From a virus, in IMG/VR virus record IMGVR_UViG_3300020157_000001, positions 1 through 64,000 of that record: DNA of 64,000 nucleotides, one strand, 5' to 3'. A program made the translations under genes and the position numbers. A model generated the notes under the pieces. It did not search any database. It worked only from the letters and a program-made list of their open reading frames with translations, and was not told where the DNA came from. Positions 192-27,156 of the stretch are shown here, in pieces (position 1 is the first letter of the stretch; each line of letters begins with the position of its first letter).

Positions 192-300
192 GAGCATGTC
201 AATAAAGTAACACTTTATTGACATGCTCAGTAGAGCTACTAGCGGCAACGCTAGTGGCTCTACTGAGCAACAACGCTCTAATATGCCATAAGGAGGCATA
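192..300 (+). promoter_or_regulatory. Compound hairpin leader, copy A
   Basis: Three inverted repeats lie back to back. The first (192-228) has perfect 17-bp arms and a 3-nt AAC loop, with the core dyad AATAAAGTAACACTTTATT at 201-219. The second (226-267) has 19-bp arms with one mismatch and a GCAA loop, and shares the bases CTC with the first. The third (282-300) is TATGCC/GGCATA and holds the Shine-Dalgarno AAGGA in its loop, directly before the GTG start at 301. The same architecture recurs at 674-786 and 1022-1130. Confidence 0.75.
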
Positions 301-645
301 GTGCATATATTCGCTACAACACAGGACGCCGCCATTGATGTCATCGGCATCATTGAGTGCCTCACGCAGGAGGCCATGCGAGCGTGCCAGACCACGTATC
401 GGGGCGAAGTGGCAGACCCCGATCTCGTCAAGGATCTGGCTGAGCGCATGGGGCGCTGGGCATTGATGTTGGCAGAGTACGCCGACGACATGCCGCACAC
501 GGATGAGCAACGTCTCATGCAGCGGCTCAAGCTTGAGCACAACAGAGGTGCTCACGGCTTGGGTTCGGATAGCTACTGGTTTGAGTCCGGTTGCCCTGAG
601 TGCCAGAACGTCAAGCAGTTCGACATTCTCCTCGCTTCGGAGTAG
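301..645 (+). CDS. Small putative zinc-binding protein, family with 1134-1472
   Basis: 114 residues from a GTG start placed immediately after the SD hairpin of leader A. Function unknown. The C-terminal third carries HN-x-G-x-HG, then YW-x-ES, then C-x2-C-QN (GCPECQN), the same pattern as the protein at 1134-1472. This suggests a shared metal-binding module made of two His and two Cys. The N-terminal part is predicted helical. The two paralogues sit behind near-identical leaders, so the leader and the 3' half of the gene seem to have been duplicated together. Confidence 0.7.
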   Translation: MHIFATTQDAAIDVIGIIECLTQEAMRACQTTYRGEVADPDLVKDLAERMGRWALMLAEYADDMPHTDEQRLMQRLKLEHNRGAHGLGSDSYWFESGCPECQNVKQFDILLASE

Positions 646-673
646 TCCAAGCGTGGGCGGAGTTTCCGCCGCT

Positions 674-786
674 GAGCATGTCAATAAAGTATTACTTTAT
701 TGACATGCTCAGTAGAGCCACCAATAAAGTAACACTTTATTGGTGGCTCTACTGAGCATTCCGCTCTAATATGCTTAGGAGGCATA
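674..786 (+). promoter_or_regulatory. Compound hairpin leader, copy B with two dyads
   Basis: The first hairpin (674-710) has perfect 17-bp arms around loop ATT, so its core is AATAAAGTATTACTTTATT. The second (708-756) has perfect 23-bp arms around loop AAC and carries a second core dyad at 723-741. In copies A and C that position holds a GCAA-loop hairpin instead. A third small hairpin, TATGC/GCATA (770-786), presents the SD AGGAG just before the ATG at 791. Confidence 0.75.
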
Positions 787-790
787 CGTC

Positions 791-1003
791 ATGGGTTACC
801 GATCAACATGGCAAGAGGACGAGGCCGCTCGTCTGGCAGAAGCGGCAGACGTAGCCAGAGGCATCTGGCTCAATGGCTTCCCCATCGGGGACTGCCAGAC
901 CACCTCTGGCGAGGTGGAGTACCCCCACGGTCGTGGGGGCAGGGGGTACAGGGTGGTAAACACCACTCACTCCGCCCACGAATGCCGTCGGCAAGGACGG
1001 TAG
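791..1003 (+). CDS. Small hypothetical protein
   Basis: 70 residues with a strong SD (AGGAGG) inside a small hairpin. No family recognised. The C-terminal half is basic and Gly/Arg-rich and ends with H-x3-C-RR. It contains one Cys near position 36 and another near the end, so weak metal binding is possible but not demonstrated. It lies between leaders B and C and is transcribed with the other small plus-strand genes. Confidence 0.6.
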   Translation: MGYRSTWQEDEAARLAEAADVARGIWLNGFPIGDCQTTSGEVEYPHGRGGRGYRVVNTTHSAHECRRQGR

Positions 1004-1021
1004 GCGGAGTTTGCGGTACCT

Positions 1022-1130
1022 GAGCATGTCAATAAAGTAACACTTTATTGACATGCTCAGTAGAGCTACTAGCGGCAACGCTAGTGGCTCTACTGAGCAT
1101 CAACGCTCTAATAATGCCATAAGGAGGCAT
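1022..1130 (+). promoter_or_regulatory. Compound hairpin leader, copy C
   Basis: Nearly identical to copy A, displaced by 830 bases. Dyad hairpin 1022-1058 (core 1031-1049, loop AAC), second hairpin 1056-1097 (loop GCAA, one arm mismatch), and SD hairpin ATGCC/GGCAT at 1114-1130 with AAGGA in the loop. It precedes the ATG at 1134. Confidence 0.75.
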
Positions 1131-1981: not shown

Positions 1982-2589
1982 GAATCAATAGCTATGTCGA
2001 AGCGGTAAGCGCCCTCAAAAAGGGGCGACCGAATCAAGCCAGCCGCAAGGTTGGAAACAACACCTACCTTGAGGAGGACATCATCAGCGAGTGCATCCAT
2101 CTGCGATTGCACCGCACTCGCATCATCACTTGGTGGGCAGACGGCCATATCACCGTGCAAGGTGAGAACTGGCAGACGAACACGACCCGTGACAGGCTCA
2201 ACAGCTTCTTGCCGGTGGGCTTCTACATCAGCACACGGTTGGTGACTACATGGAAGGACAGTCAGTACAACTGGTATTCCAACCCGAGCGTCGGCCGTTA
2301 CGACCGCCGTGAGTGGATTGTCTGCAAGGTGGGCAGCGATGAGTTCGTCAGGCATTACGACCGCATGGACTTGTCCTTGTGGGACGACCTCGTTGCAGAG
2401 CAGCAGGCCACGGACGCAAGGCGGTTGCGTGCCAACGAAGTACAGCGCCCCCTTGTCATTGCTGCACGACGTGCCGCTCGTCAGGGTGAGAAGGCAGAGG
2501 CAGAGTTTGCCGAAGCGGCGCTGGATGCCATGTTCGCTGCCGATGAAGCAGCAGCCGCCGCCCGTCGTAGTGAGTGGGTATCGCAATGA
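1978..2589 (+). CDS. Hypothetical protein with a small phage-type beta domain
   Basis: 203 residues, starting at the ATGA overlap with the previous gene. Residues about 35-75 show the pattern L-x2-T-x-I, W-x2-DG-x-I-x-V, W-x-T-x-TT-x2-RLN. A domain of this look recurs in many phage proteins and is of unknown function. The C-terminal 70 residues are Ala, Arg and Glu rich and predicted to be one long helix. No catalytic motif is visible. It is translationally coupled to the HTH gene that follows (ATGA). Confidence 0.65.
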   Translation: MRINSYVEAVSALKKGRPNQASRKVGNNTYLEEDIISECIHLRLHRTRIITWWADGHITVQGENWQTNTTRDRLNSFLPVGFYISTRLVTTWKDSQYNWYSNPSVGRYDRREWIVCKVGSDEFVRHYDRMDLSLWDDLVAEQQATDARRLRANEVQRPLVIAARRAARQGEKAEAEFAEAALDAMFAADEAAAAARRSEWVSQ

Positions 2590-3011
2590 TACGCACAATC
2601 GACACCGACCTGCTCTGTAGCGTGCCGGATATCGCCGCAGACGCTGGCGTGACCTCTGCGGCCGTGAGCAACTGGCAGAGGCGCTACAGCGACTTCCCCA
2701 CGCCGGTCTACAGCAACGGCGAACGCCTCAAGGTGTGGTATTGGCCTGAGGTGACTGAGTGGTTACTGGCACGCAACGTCGATGAGGGTCGGGCTAGTAG
2801 CATGGCAGACGTTGACACCGACGTGCTGTGCGGGATACTTGACATCGCATCATTGGCAGGCGTAAATGTGAACTGCGTGTCGAACTGGGGTAAGCGTCAT
2901 GCTGACTTTCCTAGAGCGTTGACGTGCAGAGGGCGCATCGGGGGGACGTTGGTCAAGTTGTGGTACTGGTCAGAGGTATCATCGTGGCTCTATCAGAACG
3001 GGAAGATATGA
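2586..3011 (+). CDS. Tandem helix-turn-helix DNA-binding protein
   Basis: 141 residues made of two homologous units of about 65 residues. Each has DIA-x3-G(V)-x3-VSNW, then R-x-DFP, then a WYW-x-EV-x2-WL end (units near residues 14-60 and 84-135). This resembles winged HTH domains of the MerR, AlpA or excisionase type. Two such units in one chain would suit binding to a symmetric or repeated site, and the gene lies among the AAGTAAYACTT dyads. A role in reading those dyads is inference. The start is the ATGA overlap. Confidence 0.7.
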   Translation: MIRTIDTDLLCSVPDIAADAGVTSAAVSNWQRRYSDFPTPVYSNGERLKVWYWPEVTEWLLARNVDEGRASSMADVDTDVLCGILDIASLAGVNVNCVSNWGKRHADFPRALTCRGRIGGTLVKLWYWSEVSSWLYQNGKI

Positions 3012-3118
3012 GAGACCCCGACCTTGACTGGATTGAGTGGGTCGAGTACCGTGACGATCTCGACCCTTACAACGATCAAGTAATACTTTATTCATCAACA
3101 AAGGAGGAAGTGCAATGA
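3008..3118 (+). CDS. 36-residue hypothetical protein
   Basis: Starts at an ATGA overlap with the HTH gene and ends at an ATGA overlap with the next. Acidic (DPDLDW, YRDDLDP). Its last residues, QVILYSSTKEEVQ, are encoded by a dyad plus the next SD. It may be a genuine micro-protein or mainly a coupling device. Confidence 0.5.
   Translation: MRDPDLDWIEWVEYRDDLDPYNDQVILYSSTKEEVQ
3077..3092 (+). promoter_or_regulatory. Dyad inside gene end, read as QVILY
   Basis: CAAGTAATACTTTATT, core AAGTAATACTT, within the 3' end of the 36-residue gene. Followed by a CATCAACAA tract and AAGGAGG before the ATG at 3115. Confidence 0.6.
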
Positions 3119-3952: not shown

Positions 3953-4089
3953 ACCCTCTCGCAACATATACCGTCTGCATGGTGGTGTACGTCATTGTTA
4001 TGGCGGCGCTATGGGCAGAACCCAAGATCAAGAACCAATCAAGTAATACTTTATCCAACAACAACAACAAGGAGCAATACCGTGCGTAA
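3949..4089 (+). CDS. Small single-span membrane protein, 46 residues
   Basis: Begins at an ATGA overlap. Residues about 5-24 form one hydrophobic segment (Tyr, Val, Met, Ala rich), followed by a charged tail. The tail runs through a dyad, read here as SSNTL, and an Asn run from the AAC repeats. A phage inner-membrane micro-protein is plausible; the role is unknown. Confidence 0.5.
   Translation: MNPLATYTVCMVVYVIVMAALWAEPKIKNQSSNTLSNNNNKEQYRA
4039..4054 (+). promoter_or_regulatory. Dyad inside gene end, read as SNTL
   Basis: TCAAGTAATACTTTAT with core AAGTAATACTT, followed by CCAACAACAACAACAAGGAG before the GTG at 4082. Same leader grammar as the other copies but in another reading frame of the upstream gene. 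Confidence 0.6.
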
Positions 4090-4464: not shown

Positions 4465-4688
4465 TGCATATCAAACTCAACGGCGACTGCTACCCCATCT
4501 TCATTGATGAGGAAGCGTGCGATGTTGTAGACCAACTCATCTTCGCAGCAGATGAGGCTGGCTACACGCCCCCAAATGACCAGCCAGTAGGAGAGTGGGC
4601 AGAGGATGCCGCACTCGTAATACTCGCCCGATATACCGCCATACCATCAAGTAATACTTTATTCGACCCAAAAGGAGCAACACAATGA
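4464..4688 (+). CDS. Hypothetical protein, 74 residues
   Basis: Starts at the TAATG junction. Acidic and helical in the middle. The end (SSNTLFDPKGATQ) is encoded by a dyad and the SD of the next gene, which it overlaps by ATGA. No family recognised. Confidence 0.6.
   Translation: MHIKLNGDCYPIFIDEEACDVVDQLIFAADEAGYTPPNDQPVGEWAEDAALVILARYTAIPSSNTLFDPKGATQ
4648..4663 (+). promoter_or_regulatory. Dyad inside gene end, read as SNTLF
   Basis: CAAGTAATACTTTATT, core AAGTAATACTT, followed by CGACCCAAAAGGAGCAAC before the ATG at 4685. Confidence 0.6.
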
Positions 4689-5839: not shown

Positions 5840-6036
5840 GCTACGTCATCGTAGACGCAATCAAAGGGGAAATCCAGTACTGGTCAAACAGTATTGGGTG
5901 GGTCAGCATCCATGATGCAGACGTATTCTCCGACGAAGAACAACGCACACTGAACCTTCCCTACGAAGGACACTGGCTAAAACTAGTAGGAGAACAGCAA
6001 AGTAATACTTTACTCAACAACAAGGAGAGCAAGTGA
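5836..6036 (+). CDS. Hypothetical protein, 66 residues
   Basis: Starts at ATGA. Beta-rich N-terminus (YVIVDAIKGEIQYW). The last residues (QQSNTLLNNKESK) are encoded by a dyad plus leader. The following gene starts at a GTGA overlap. Confidence 0.6.
   Translation: MSYVIVDAIKGEIQYWSNSIGWVSIHDADVFSDEEQRTLNLPYEGHWLKLVGEQQSNTLLNNKESK
5999..6011 (+). promoter_or_regulatory. Dyad inside gene end, read as SNTLL
   Basis: AAAGTAATACTTT, then ACTCAACAACAAGGAG before the GTG at 6033. Shorter arms than the extended copies. Confidence 0.55.
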
Positions 6037-7582: not shown

Positions 7583-7583
7583 C

Positions 7584-7602
7584 AATAAAGTAATACTTTA
7601 CT
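7584..7602 (+). promoter_or_regulatory. Dyad ahead of SNF2 helicase gene
   Basis: AATAAAGTAATACTTTACT, one base from the full symmetric form. It lies just after the upstream stop, and ACTCAACAACAAGGAG follows before the GTG at 7622. This copy is intergenic. Confidence 0.65.
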
Positions 7603-7621
7603 CAACAACAAGGAGCATAAC

Positions 7622-9151: not shown

Positions 9152-9153
9152 CC

Positions 9154-9170
9154 AATAAAGTAATACTTTA
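9154..9170 (+). promoter_or_regulatory. Dyad downstream of the helicase gene
   Basis: AATAAAGTAATACTTTA, then CTCAACAACAACCACAACC and AACAAGGAG before the ATG at 9206. Intergenic. Confidence 0.65.
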
Positions 9171-9205
9171 CTCAACAACAACCACAACCAAACAAGGAGT
9201 TCGCA

Positions 9206-9838
9206 ATGACAAGCTGGTGTATCAATAACTTAGAAGTCATATCCGATGAGGCCACTCGTAAGAGCATCCTCGCAACAGTAACAACTGTGCCGCCAACTGT
9301 TGACGGTATCAACAACGAGGGTCAGGAGGCATACATCTTTCAGAACCTGCTCCCTTGCCCAACTCGCCCAGAAGCTGATGAAATGGACGGATACTATTGG
9401 AGGATTGCCAACTGGGGAACTAAGTGGGCTGACAACAACACAGAGATCACAAGCATGTCAGACGACGACCTTCAGTTCGTCTTCAGCACAGCATGGTCGC
9501 CCCCCTGTGCAGGTATCCAGAACATCTCCAAGAACTACCCAGATGCTCACTTCATCCTGACATGGGAATCCAGCGAGGATTGCTACATGGGCGGTGCTGT
9601 CTACAAGGCTGGCGAGACTCTTCACGAAGTGACCATCGAAGGGGACGATTACCCTCAGTTCGACGGGGACTTCGCCAGTGAAGAAGACGCTGACTCGTAC
9701 CAAAAGTACGCCGACGACATGTGCGATCTTCGTGACCGCATCCAAACCGAACTGTGGGAAGTAACCCAAGACAACGACGAAGGTTGCGGTAAGTGGGGCT
9801 GCAAGGACTGCTACCCCGATGACGAGGTGACACAATGA
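9206..9838 (+). CDS. Api92-like ferredoxin-fold domain protein
   Basis: 210 residues. Begins MTSWCINNLEV, continues with NLLPCP, a W-x-NWGTKW segment and F-x-TAWSPPC...I, then a WESSEDC segment. This matches the layout of Api92-like proteins (DUF1281 family) found in plasmids and phages, whose biochemical role is unknown. The C-terminus adds an acidic tail with a CGKWGCKDC cluster. Coupled by ATGA to the next gene. Confidence 0.65.
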   Translation: MTSWCINNLEVISDEATRKSILATVTTVPPTVDGINNEGQEAYIFQNLLPCPTRPEADEMDGYYWRIANWGTKWADNNTEITSMSDDDLQFVFSTAWSPPCAGIQNISKNYPDAHFILTWESSEDCYMGGAVYKAGETLHEVTIEGDDYPQFDGDFASEEDADSYQKYADDMCDLRDRIQTELWEVTQDNDEGCGKWGCKDCYPDDEVTQ

Positions 9839-10059: not shown

Positions 10060-10095
10060 GAGGGGGTATGGCTTGACTGTCATACCCCCTCTTTG
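10060..10095 (+). terminator. Rho-independent terminator
   Basis: GAGGGGGTATG (10060-10070) pairs perfectly with CATACCCCCTC (10081-10091) around a 10-base loop, then CTTTG. It separates the early small-gene block from the MoxR/VWA pair. Confidence 0.75.
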
Positions 10096-11462: not shown

Positions 11463-11505
11463 ATGAGATGAGTGAGTCAAGTATTACTTGACTCACTCAT
11501 CTCAT
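11463..11505 (+). promoter_or_regulatory. Long dyad hairpin ahead of the VWA gene
   Basis: Perfect 20-bp arms (ATGAGATGAGTGAGTCAAGT) around loop ATT. The core is AAGTATTACTT, the complement of the usual form. A CAACAACAACAACA tract and GAGGAGG follow before the ATG at 11562. The arms differ wholly from those at 192-1635, only the core being kept. Confidence 0.75.
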
Positions 11506-11561: not shown

Positions 11562-13685
11562 ATGGCCAAGCAAGATACCAACAACAACTACAAAGCCAAG
11601 CGGGGCTTAGGAGGCGCAGTCACTCGTCAGCGCCGCCGAGCCGCAGATGGAGTTCGCGCCGACAAGGATGCGTTCTGGGCAAGCAACAGGAATGCTGCCA
11701 TTGACGAGCTAGCTCGCAATCAACGAGAGTTTGAGAACCGTGCCGAGATGCTTCGCAAGCGCTTCATCCGTGGCATCTTTAACTCCACTATCTCCAACTC
11801 AACAGCCGTGACACGTTCACGTGGCTTGACCGCAAGCGTCAGAGCACACGTGACCGAAAACTGGTACGGATTCAGCGCTTACACTGACTTCTCTTCTATC
11901 ACCATCAACTGGCCTGAGAAGATGCTCCCTAAGAGCGACACCGATCACAGCGCAGTGTTGGACTCCATTGCTCAGATTCGTGGAGTGTACTTCCACGAAG
12001 AGGGGCACATTCGCTACACGGTTCCATTCACTCAAGTGTCAAACTCAGTCTATAACTCAGCGCAACCACCCGAGTACAGTGACTATGTGCTAGTCAAGAC
12101 TTGGAACATCTTGGAAGATCAGCGCATGGAGTGTGCAGTAGTTGCAGACGTGCCCCGTATGGCTACCTACTTCACTCCAATGGCTCTCAAGATTCTCCTA
12201 CAGCGTGACACCCCCATTCCAAGCAACGATCTCCGCAGGGCATATATCTTGGTGGCCGGTCGTACCTACCTTGCCGCCAACGTCCGTCAAGAGTGTGCAA
12301 ACGGATTCGACAAGCTGTGCGATGGTTACAACGTACCGAACGGTGCTGCTACTTGGTTTGATATTGTTAGCCGGTATAAGGCAGCAGTAACCAATGCTGA
12401 TCTGTACTCCATCATTGTCGAAGCTCATAAGTTCCTCTGGAGCATCAACGACACGACAGGTGATGGGTACGGCAACGGTGACCACACTAGGCAACGTGAG
12501 AACCCCAACGCAACGCCTGACAAGGGTGCCACCCCCACTGACCCATCGGATGCTCCATCAGATACTACTGATAAGGGTGACGCAGACGATGGTGATGCCG
12601 GTAACGGTGACGCAGACGATGGTGACGCAGACGATGGTGATGCCAAGGGTGACGGTGATGCCAAGGGTGACGGTGATGGTGATGGTGATGCCAGCGACGA
12701 CAATGACTCCAGCCCCTCACCTACCAAGGATACCTACGGTGATGATTCCGGCAAGCCCGTCGAACGTCGTGACGGGGAAGAGCGTGAGGCTCCAACCTCG
12801 TTGCCAGACGGTAGTCAGTCCAACCACGGTGACGGCTCGCATGTCTTCAACAAGGATGCCATTACACAGGCTATCGAAGAAGCTATCGCTGGTGCTGACA
12901 GTGCTGCTCATAATGACACCGAGGTTCTTGACATCTTTGAGAACCTTGGCGAATACGACACGACCTCATCGCTTCCTGAGTACGACGGCTATGTAATAGA
13001 CATGACAGATGCAGAACTGAGCCATGCCAATGACATCACTGTCGGTATCCAGAACGCCCTTGAGACGTACGTGTCAGCGTCGTCACCTCAATGGAGGACT
13101 CACCAAGAGCGGGGGGCTATCCAGCCTCTCCAGTACCGTACCAAGGAGATCGGCTCGCAAGAGTTCCATCGGTACCTTGAGGGTAACGGTAACACTGGTC
13201 TGGACTTGCATGTGTCCATCTTGGCTGATGCGAGTGGCAGCATGGGGTACCACATGACCGAGCTTAGCCAGTTCATGTACGCTGCGAGAAATGCTTGCGA
13301 GTCATTAGGTATCGGTATCACTCAGTCGCTATGGTCATCCGAAGGTCAGAACTACCGCATCTGGAGTTCGGGGCCTAAGCCAGAAGTGTTCCCTGCCATG
13401 GGCGGTACAGAACCCACCATGGCGTTAGATGACCTAGCTACCCACAACCCAGAGGGTGCAAACAATCACCTTGTGTTGGTCTTCACCGATGGTGAATGGT
13501 CATATGAGTTCCCTAGCCTCGCTAGGTGGTCAGCCCCCGGTCGTAGCATCATGTTCATCCGGTACGGTGGTAACTCTGATAAGAGCATGGGCGCTGATAC
13601 TCATATCAGCATCAATAGGGTCAGTGAGCTAGGTGAGCAGTTGACCTACGGCATCAGCGACGTGCTAGCCTCGTCTAGTCACTAA
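11562..13685 (+). CDS. CobT-like VWA domain protein with HExxH motif
   Basis: 707 residues. The ATG is chosen for its SD; an earlier in-frame start would run through the hairpin and a Gln run. Residues 145-149 are HEEGH and 183-188 ILEDQR, the HExxH plus ED-R arrangement of VWA-linked metallopeptidase-like proteins. About 340-386 is an acidic low-complexity linker of Gly-Asp-Ala repeats. The C-terminal VWA domain has the MIDAS motif DASGSM (about 556), GGTEPT and FTDGEW (about 641). It is the expected partner of the MoxR ATPase upstream. Whether the HExxH site is catalytic is not known. Confidence 0.85.
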   Translation: MAKQDTNNNYKAKRGLGGAVTRQRRRAADGVRADKDAFWASNRNAAIDELARNQREFENRAEMLRKRFIRGIFNSTISNSTAVTRSRGLTASVRAHVTENWYGFSAYTDFSSITINWPEKMLPKSDTDHSAVLDSIAQIRGVYFHEEGHIRYTVPFTQVSNSVYNSAQPPEYSDYVLVKTWNILEDQRMECAVVADVPRMATYFTPMALKILLQRDTPIPSNDLRRAYILVAGRTYLAANVRQECANGFDKLCDGYNVPNGAATWFDIVSRYKAAVTNADLYSIIVEAHKFLWSINDTTGDGYGNGDHTRQRENPNATPDKGATPTDPSDAPSDTTDKGDADDGDAGNGDADDGDADDGDAKGDGDAKGDGDGDGDASDDNDSSPSPTKDTYGDDSGKPVERRDGEEREAPTSLPDGSQSNHGDGSHVFNKDAITQAIEEAIAGADSAAHNDTEVLDIFENLGEYDTTSSLPEYDGYVIDMTDAELSHANDITVGIQNALETYVSASSPQWRTHQERGAIQPLQYRTKEIGSQEFHRYLEGNGNTGLDLHVSILADASGSMGYHMTELSQFMYAARNACESLGIGITQSLWSSEGQNYRIWSSGPKPEVFPAMGGTEPTMALDDLATHNPEGANNHLVLVFTDGEWSYEFPSLARWSAPGRSIMFIRYGGNSDKSMGADTHISINRVSELGEQLTYGISDVLASSSH
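12580..12710 (+). repeat. Gly-Asp-Ala coding repeat
   Basis: Degenerate short repeats (GGTGACGCAGACGAT and GGTGATGCCAAGGGT types) encode the acidic linker of the VWA protein. Such repeats change length easily. Confidence 0.7.
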
Positions 13686-25542: not shown

Positions 25543-27156
25543 TTATGCCTTCTTACTTCTTTTGCTTGGAGCCTTGGCGGCTGGCTTTCCCCCACGCATT
25601 GCGGCCTGAAGTCGGGCGGCATCTTTGCTTCTCTCAGCCTCAGCGTACGTTGATGCGTCAGTCTTCTTGGCAGCGGGCTTGGCAGTGGATTTAGCAGCGG
25701 ACTTGGCTGGTGCCCGCTTAGATGCCGCCTTGCCACGAATCTTAGGAGCAGTTGAGGCAGGGTCATTCTCATCACCAGAGACGTACGGGATACGCTTGGG
25801 CGGCGCTGAGGTCTTACCCTTAGGGGCTTCATCAGGCTTTCTTGGATCAAGTATTCCTTCCCCCTTCTTAGGACGAGATTCTGGCGCAGTAGATGTTCCC
25901 GGCTTCCGCTGCAACTCAGCGATACGCGCTGCTTCAGCGATACGAGCTGATGCGGTTTCATGGGTAGAAGTTGGATATGCGGACATATCAGGAGCAGAGA
26001 TGGTGCTGCCTAGGTCGTAAGCGGCACCTGCTGGTCGCTTAACCTTGATTGGCTCAGACTTGATAGGGCCAGTAGGTGGCTTTTTGAGGCCGTCCTTGCC
26101 CTTGCGTCCCTTGACCTTGCTCTCGTTCACCTCGCCTTCACGGGTCCGAGTGACTTTATCTTTTAGCTTCGATACGACGGGCTTACGACCACCGGCTGGC
26201 TTCATTACGCTACCCATAGACTTAAGAACAGACTCGTTAACATCAATAAGTTGCGATGCTTGCTCTGGCATTTCAAAGAACTCTCCAACGGAGCCATGTG
26301 GCATGATAGGTCCCCTGCCCGTCATACCAGCCTCATGGAAGTACTTACCAGTACTAATTTGTGATGGACCTTTAACCCTGCTCTCTCTGCGAGTTTCGGG
26401 CCTGCGCTGTTCCAATGCGCGTTGAAAATCAGGAGAGGCGGGCTGACCAACAGAAGTTCGTGGTGCTCCGGGGTCCGTACGACCGCCCTCAGAACCAGTA
26501 CCTTCTTTTCGGTCAGTATACGGATGACGTTGAGCGAAAGGAGGACCGCCCTGCGAGTATCCATTAAACTTTGGTCTGGTGGTATTGTACGCAGCACCGG
26601 CGTTATGATCCCGATCATCTTTTGATGAGGATTTTGTATTGGGCTTGTACCCCCCTTGACCTTCGTACTTCCCTCCGGGTGCGTAATCCCCTGTACGTTC
26701 GATGCGCGCAGCTTCCTTGCGGTGAGTATCGAACGATGAAGTCTTAACCTCAACGCCAGCTTTTGTACGGGTGTTACCTATACGCCCCTGCATTTCATAC
26801 CCACGCGCGAGGGCAACACCAAGTTCCCTCTTGTTGTATGGGTCTACCCGCTGGGGTCCACCTGTCTCACGTGGAATGATATGGCCAACTGGACGAGATG
26901 CACGGTCAGCCTTACCCTGTGCGCGACGAGCTTCATCAGCTTTACGTGCGTTTAGAGCAACTGAGGCATCTGGAACGGTATTCACAGGCATTGGGCCGCG
27001 AGCAGCATTGCCCCGAGCACCAGTAGAGGGTAGACTACGGTGAGTATCCCCTGCTTTTGGATAAAGGGAACCGAGCGAGTTACCCAAGCGATCGTTTACA
27101 CGATCACCAAAGGAACTGCGGGCTGGATGGGAACTGGTGTCTTCACCACGTGCCAT
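25543..27156 (-). CDS. Large disordered basic protein
   Basis: 537 residues, rich in Arg, Lys, Gly, Pro and Ser throughout. Repetitive Lys/Ala tail (KSAAKSTAKPAAKKTDAS, ending SKRSKKA) resembles histone H1-like or Ku-tail DNA-binding segments. A short ordered part near 290-330 (FFEMPEQASQLIDVNESVL). Possibly DNA-compacting or virion-internal. It precedes the other small basic genes and follows the SpoVS gene. Confidence 0.6.
   Translation of the reverse strand: MARGEDTSSHPARSSFGDRVNDRLGNSLGSLYPKAGDTHRSLPSTGARGNAARGPMPVNTVPDASVALNARKADEARRAQGKADRASRPVGHIIPRETGGPQRVDPYNKRELGVALARGYEMQGRIGNTRTKAGVEVKTSSFDTHRKEAARIERTGDYAPGGKYEGQGGYKPNTKSSSKDDRDHNAGAAYNTTRPKFNGYSQGGPPFAQRHPYTDRKEGTGSEGGRTDPGAPRTSVGQPASPDFQRALEQRRPETRRESRVKGPSQISTGKYFHEAGMTGRGPIMPHGSVGEFFEMPEQASQLIDVNESVLKSMGSVMKPAGGRKPVVSKLKDKVTRTREGEVNESKVKGRKGKDGLKKPPTGPIKSEPIKVKRPAGAAYDLGSTISAPDMSAYPTSTHETASARIAEAARIAELQRKPGTSTAPESRPKKGEGILDPRKPDEAPKGKTSAPPKRIPYVSGDENDPASTAPKIRGKAASKRAPAKSAAKSTAKPAAKKTDASTYAEAERSKDAARLQAAMRGGKPAAKAPSKRSKKA

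Follow-up and report, generated by a model that had tools for sequence, protein, structure and literature searches.

Palindromic predicted operators reiterated before the early genes of an actinophage-like myophage, and a concerted change of their centre in cousin genomes

The stretch of DNA analysed here (the window) belongs to an IMG/VR record of 91,205 bases, of which it covers the first 64 kb, and is a contig of an uncultivated actinophage-like myophage. Its genes include those for a contractile tail sheath, a DNA polymerase of family A, an endolysin and a portal protein with 55% identity to the portal of Streptomyces myophages such as LuckySocke. Neither a tyrosine integrase nor a serine recombinase was found by searches whose controls were positive. 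Genes between 0 and 17 kb lie on the + strand and the remainder mostly on the - strand. Every sequence analysed, in the window and in the cousin records alike, is a metagenomic contig.

Close to the left end, three leaders (copies A, B and C) precede genes a, b and c. As the original prediction had it, the three share the same order of elements, namely two long inverted repeats (P1 and P2) followed by an inverted repeat around the Shine-Dalgarno sequence (SD hairpin); the coordinates are slightly corrected to 192-300, 672-785 and 1020-1130. The features are as follows.

192-228, no strand: copy A P1, palindromic predicted operator with 17-bp perfect arms and core AATAAAGTAACACTTTATT
224-269, + strand: copy A P2, RNA-type hairpin with a GCAA cap and 21-nt arms including one T.G, 5 nt in common with P1
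282-300, + strand: copy A SD hairpin, TATGCC-ATAAGGA-GGCATA
301-645, + strand: gene a, 114 aa, GTG start, paralogue of gene c
672-712, no strand: copy B P1, palindromic predicted operator with 19-20-bp arms and one central base
705-759, no strand: copy B P2, 26-bp perfect arms, basal stem like that of A and C, tip formed by a second predicted operator core
771-785, + strand: copy B SD hairpin, ATGC-TTAGGAG-GCAT
791-1003, + strand: gene b, 70 aa
1020-1060, no strand: copy C P1, palindromic predicted operator with 19-bp arms
1053-1100, + strand: copy C P2, GCAA-capped hairpin with 22-nt arms including one T.G
1114-1130, + strand: copy C SD hairpin, ATGCC-ATAAGGA-GGCAT
1134-1472, + strand: gene c, 112 aa, paralogue of gene a

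With its GCAA tetraloop and G.U pair, P2 of copies A and C resembles an RNA hairpin. In copy B a P1-type core stands in place of the GCAA-capped tip and the basal stem is intact. The second core described earlier within this hairpin is therefore present, but the perfect arms measure 26 bp and not the 23 bp first given. Copy B would be a variant in which an operator core has replaced the tip of P2. Leaders A and C are 99% identical across 92 nt, and the products of genes a and c are diverged paralogues (33% identity across 84 aa, E=4e-8), which bears out the earlier suggestion of a duplicated regulatory module. Judging from these sequences, a gene-plus-leader module was probably duplicated to give A and C, and the leader has probably since been homogenised or held by selection. 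The SD hairpin extends beyond the three copies: GCC lies 10 nt or less before GGAGGC in 7 of 11 start-linked cases, compared with one of seven elsewhere in the early region, and the pattern recurs in three cousin genomes described below (G019-G021). SD sites at 0-5.1 kb of the window and in cousin contigs L188-L190 take the form GCC-N-AGGAGGC, in which a short inverted repeat brackets the Shine-Dalgarno sequence; this form was not seen in cousins G003 and G018.

The feature is not limited to positions 192-1130. The P1 core CAATMAAGTAAYACTTTAYT occurs in 13 copies, all within the first 11.5 kb (0.2-11.5 kb of the 91-kb record). Besides P1 of copies A, B and C, ten more sites reach position 11,505: three long palindromes (B2 in copy B, D and E) and seven core-only sites (F to L). 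The first bases of the core 11-mers are 205, 687, 727, 1035, 1613, 1929, 3078, 4041, 4649, 6000, 7588, 9158 and 11479. A pattern scan allowing up to 3 mismatches returned 13 core matches, of which 12 fall in the early region; the number expected by dinucleotide shuffling is 0.13. When the complete 91-kb record was scanned with a weight matrix, no sites beyond the 13 appeared, and 20 shuffles of the window had 0-1 chance matches each. The sites beyond the three leaders, and two further SD hairpins, are listed here.

1600-1636, no strand: site D, long palindrome with 17-bp arms; its outer arm differs from that of A by a compensatory change of T-A to C-G
1654-1667, + strand: SD hairpin of the gene behind site D, inverted repeat around the SD
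1924-1946, + strand: site F, core-only, within the 3' end of the upstream gene
1959-1973, + strand: SD hairpin of the gene behind site F, inverted repeat around the SD
3073-3095, + strand: site G, core-only, followed by a CAACAA leader and SD
4036-4058, + strand: site H, core-only, followed by a CAACAACAACAA leader and SD
4644-4666, + strand: site I, core-only
5995-6017, + strand: site J, core-only
7583-7605, + strand: site K, core-only, upstream of an SNF2-type helicase gene (7622)
9153-9175, + strand: site L, core-only, upstream of the gene at 9206
11463-11505, no strand: site E, long palindrome with 20-bp arms of unrelated sequence, upstream of the gene at 11562

An SD and start codon follow every core site, frequently after a CA-rich stretch. 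The six long palindromes (A, B1, B2, C, D and E) have arms of 17-26 bp, whereas contiguous arms at the core-only sites span just 4-7 bp. Since seven sites keep the core without a long stem, the shared element is a sequence and not a stem. All seven core-only sites of the window have one orientation relative to the gene, a uniformity that would not be needed if the operator were symmetric and that counts against an operator reading. Several of them fall inside the 3' end of the upstream gene, where they are read in two different frames, and selection must therefore act on the nucleotides. Neither a DNA-level search of the first 8 kb of the window against phages nor an Rfam search gave a match. 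Scans of IMG/VR with the exact or the degenerate core returned none, or two chance matches in AT-rich contigs, and 18 single matches of the degenerate core in unrelated GTDB genomes were judged to be chance and rejected.

Relatives show a comparable arrangement built on another sequence. The closest records by portal protein include G002 (95%), whose contig lacks the early region, and G003 (72%). G003 carries nine copies of a palindrome, TGTCCCGT-W-ACGGGACA, that is unrelated to the window core; the copies lie mostly before early genes and have complementary extensions and a CA-rich leader, as in the window. An early protein of G003 used as query led to contigs L187-L191, located in records G018-G022. 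The pattern TGTCCC-N5-GGGACA is present in nine copies in G003, eight in G018, 12 each in G019, G020 and G021 and two in the fragment G022. It is confined to the early region in whole-record scans of the cousins, where a reversed control pattern had zero copies. An SNF2-type helicase gene is preceded by a site both in the window (K) and in G003 (1332), and the two site sequences are unrelated. Because the operators are alike in architecture and not in sequence, carrying conclusions from the cousins to the window is an analogy. A dyad-symmetric sequence is in each case reiterated at gene starts, 13 times in the window genome and 8-12 times per cousin. No such reiterated palindromes before genes were found in the SNF2-helicase relatives (L007-L027), in LuckySocke or in most portal relatives.

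The comparison of G020 with G021 reveals a concerted switch of the operator centre. Of the 21 kb of early region compared in these genomes, most is 91.7-97.5% identical, and some stretches at the left end are 75-77% identical. All 12 centres of G020 are of the ACCGT/ACCAT type (ACSGT) and all 12 of G021 are of the GACTC/GACAC type (GASTC/GTGTC), with zero overlap. Across seven orthologous sites of this pair the centre differs at 4.57 of 5 bases and the half-sites at 0, and the flanks differ at 0.158 per nt. For G020 and G019, which have the same centre, the values are 0.20 of 5 bases per centre and 0.102 per flank nt. At the orthologous sites L189:11849 and L190:11849, all 58 flanking bases agree and the centres differ at four of five positions. 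A change at every site requires a factor acting in trans, which points to co-evolution of the operators with a viral protein that recognises them.

Outside the centre, the arms follow a different rule. We computed covariation on 47 distinct cousin sites, with shuffled and slid controls. The arms pair in 74% of cells compared with 64% after shuffling, and cells changed on both sides number 119 against 68. The covariation score is 0.278 against 0.137 for shuffled sites (0 of 500) and at most 0.141 for the slid control. The centre pair 17-21 is A-T in 26 sites, G-C in 21 and unpaired in none. Orthologous sites provide individual examples of compensatory change: ATAGTGG/CCACTAT versus ACAGTGG/CCACTGT, GATGGGG/CCCCATC versus GACGGAG/CTCCGTT, and GGGGAG/CTCCCC versus GGTGAG/CTCACC. 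As related sequences exceed shuffles more easily, the slid control and these examples carry more weight than the shuffles. Arm pairing in relatives, on which the original prediction had staked its stems, is thus maintained by compensatory change, and the outer arms seem to be under a pairing constraint of their own, separate from the core.

We consider it likely, from the sequence patterns described, that P1 and the second core of copy B are operators of a dimeric, sequence-specific, phage-encoded DNA-binding regulator of about a dozen early genes. One regulator would bind all the sites, its dimer contacting the core at a site that overlaps or adjoins the transcription start. At most sites the operator centre lies about 27-70 nt upstream of the start codon. 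The regulator would most likely act as a repressor, shutting off early transcription. The core-only sites J and K lie just 28-29 nt from the start codon and leave too little room for a classical upstream activator, which favours repression over activation. In the RNA, the long arms and P2 may also act as an insulating or stabilising hairpin, and the SD hairpin may tune translation. It is conceivable, though we hold it with some doubt, that these apparently lytic myophages carry a bifunctional palindrome, in which a switchable protein operator core is combined with arms that are separately selected as a transcript-insulating or transcript-stabilising hairpin. A specificity switch could be selected if the regulator of one phage shuts off the early genes of a co-infecting relative. 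If the bifunctional reading is true, operator-regulator pairs leave close relatives mutually blind.

The best anatomical match among known systems is the SAS/ESAS system of cluster K phages. In those phages about 10-20 copies are found per genome, close before start codons of the non-structural half; a short repeat surrounds the SD, and a subset has a longer inverted repeat upstream of it (PMC3203893; PMC11373665). The consensus of the ESAS inverted repeat differs by subcluster, and it is thought to be a protein-binding site (PMC3203893; PMC11373665). Pope et al. noted that departures from the ESAS consensus do not support RNA pairing and suggested subcluster-specific DNA-binding proteins (PMC3203893). 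Copy number, placement and the combination of an SD repeat with an upstream inverted repeat are alike. The sequence is different, however: the 13-bp SAS (GGGATAGGAGCCC) sits directly upstream of start codons, and a scan of the window for it gave no match at fewer than 3 mismatches and six at 3 mismatches, where 16.5 were expected. ESAS consists of imperfect 17-bp repeats with a spacer of several nt and contains SigA-like -35 and -10 hexamers 17-18 bp apart, whereas the palindromes described here are perfect, have a centre of 1-3 nt and hold no conserved hexamers. Arm changes are compensated here, in contrast to the ESAS departures, and the difference in specificity is seen between near-identical genomes. 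Cluster K phages are temperate siphophages; those described here are myophages without an integrase.

A close variant of the operator reading takes the palindrome as part of a promoter, so that the sites would be host SigA promoters of the ESAS type with an overlapping regulator site. We regard this as possible but rather unlikely. The placement before SD hairpins is the same, and at about four sites per genome in G019-G021 GATAGTGA lies at +23 to +28 from the centre, where it could be a -10 element. Yet an overall enrichment of -10-like sequences is absent, the window, G003 and G018 lack any GATAGTGA-like element, and no conserved -35/-10 was found around the sites of the window and the cousins. 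A host sigma-70 promoter at the core itself was rejected, since the sites share no consistent -10/-35. The 8-mer GATAGTGA was also noted as such in leaders of L188, L189 and L190, for example at about 1294-1301 of L189.

It appears improbable that the sites serve between early genes as terminators, or as hairpins processed by RNase III, and that their shared sequence is a side effect of copying one hairpin around. Several long palindromes of G003 do lie about 10-27 nt past the upstream stop codon, another GC-rich inverted repeat closely precedes each of its two core-only sites, and the arms hold a few G.T pairs. However, no U-tract follows the sites, the core-only sites are unable to form such stems, and terminators would not be expected to change their centre in concert at every site.

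Equally in need of weighing is a switch at the level of the leader RNA, in which P1 and P2 would be alternative hairpins that expose or hide the SD hairpin. The leaders fold very stably in prediction (z-scores of -9.8 to -14.4), P2 has its GCAA tetraloop and a T.G (G.U) within the stem, and the arms covary. The competition between P1 and P2 that had been proposed from their shared bases is nevertheless not borne out: the overlap is 5-8 nt only and the minimum-energy structures (-70, -84 and -67 kcal/mol) hold both hairpins, so strong competition is not expected. Moreover, seven core sites lack the long stems, the invariant part in the cousins is a sequence (TGTCCC/GGGACA in 47 of 47 distinct sites) and the operator centre changes in concert throughout the cousin genomes. 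Coexisting hairpins, sites without long stems and the change of centre at all sites fit a DNA site read by a trans-acting protein and not a cis-acting RNA switch, which we hold to be very improbable.

The N4 virion RNA polymerase uses promoters located ahead of early genes, in which a short stem carries a 3-nt loop. The corresponding reading, a stem extruded from supercoiled DNA with a transcription start about 11 nt downstream, is the least probable of all: a stem of 4-7 bp closed by an AAY loop can be drawn at the cores, short CA-rich leaders follow and host-type -10/-35 elements were not found, but no single-subunit or virion RNA polymerase was seen among the large proteins of the 91-kb record, which may be incomplete, none is annotated in the related complete phage LuckySocke, a Pfam RNA_pol search of the record was negative with a silent control, and the core-only stems of sites G-I contain mismatches.

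To return to the predicted operators and their regulator, G019, G020 and G021 each carry a gene of about 253 aa between two operators near the left end; in G020 it occupies L208:956-1714 and is flanked by operators at 905 and 1734 of L208. A second 253-aa allele is encoded at L209:595-1353. The 253-aa protein is a candidate for the regulator. Its identity is 97% between G019 and G020, which have the same centre, and 61% between G020 and G021, which have different centres. The divergence alone does not single it out, since the tail and baseplate genes of G020 and G021 have diverged as well. An 81-aa central segment is predicted with confidence to form four helices (pLDDT 93), and the candidate recognition helix is GKSTYARYAKAG in G020 and GKSTFSRYAKVG in G021. 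Searches of Pfam and PHROG with the candidate gave zero matches and fold searches nothing significant; the best resemblance to a DNA-binding protein was StbA of R388 (TM 0.52-0.57, E 7.9), with other non-significant resemblances to POU, BldD and phage HTH proteins. The window, G003 and G018 yielded no homologue. The window's counterpart of the gene would be truncated at the left end of the contig; only the last 56 codons before leader A are present there, and they have no recognisable match. As to co-evolution of site and protein, the concerted switch of centre is seen and the linked protein allele is seen in three genomes only. Alternatively, the regulator could be among the small divergent genes with which the cousins begin on the left.

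Two other proteins were set aside as regulators. One is a fast-evolving protein of 245-537 aa adjoining a SpoVS-like gene, discarded for its low complexity; the other is a triple-HTH protein (L190:11347-11835) that is 99% identical between genomes with different operators. The low-complexity protein evolves very fast (window 25543-27156, L197:2687-3478 and L202:2947-3684, with GRPKK-type repeats in G019 and G020) and keeps a constant position, flanked by two well conserved genes of which one is probably the SpoVS-like gene. The window also encodes, at 2574-3011, a 145-aa protein with two tandem HTH-like repeats that adjoins the leader cluster and is another possible regulator.

In their logic of operator-repressor divergence, the sites resemble the stoperators of cluster A phages, in which many short operators per genome diverge together with the repressor to give new immune specificities (PMC6550527, PMC9283540). 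Stoperators are asymmetric 13-bp sites to which a monomer binds and which are scattered across the genome (PMC6550527, PMC9283540), whereas those described here have dyad symmetry and occur only at the starts of early genes, and the integrase searches were negative. How the specificity of a phage regulator changes when about a dozen sites must each change is a long-standing puzzle. With two candidate regulator alleles and two operator types, G020 and G021 make this problem directly testable. The findings also suggest that operators reiterated at gene starts extend beyond temperate mycobacteriophages.

Some further features of the record were noted. The - strand genes at 17-42 kb and contigs L005/L006 encode small proteins that include two WhiB-family proteins, a MerR-type HTH protein, a ferritin-like protein and a match to the Acb2/Tad1 hairpin domain, the last with a possible role in anti-defence. 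At 15454-15928 of L005 (record 79454-79928) AACGCCAGCGTT occurs six times at spacings of 66, 132 or 144 bases; the repeats lie in a region of the left-transcribed strand and likely belong to a repetitive protein. At 10060-10091 of the window a GC-rich hairpin, GAGGGGGTATG...CATACCCCCTC followed by TTTG, is the top terminator-like site of the early region. It precedes an AAA ATPase gene (10147) that has no operator in the window and has one in G003.
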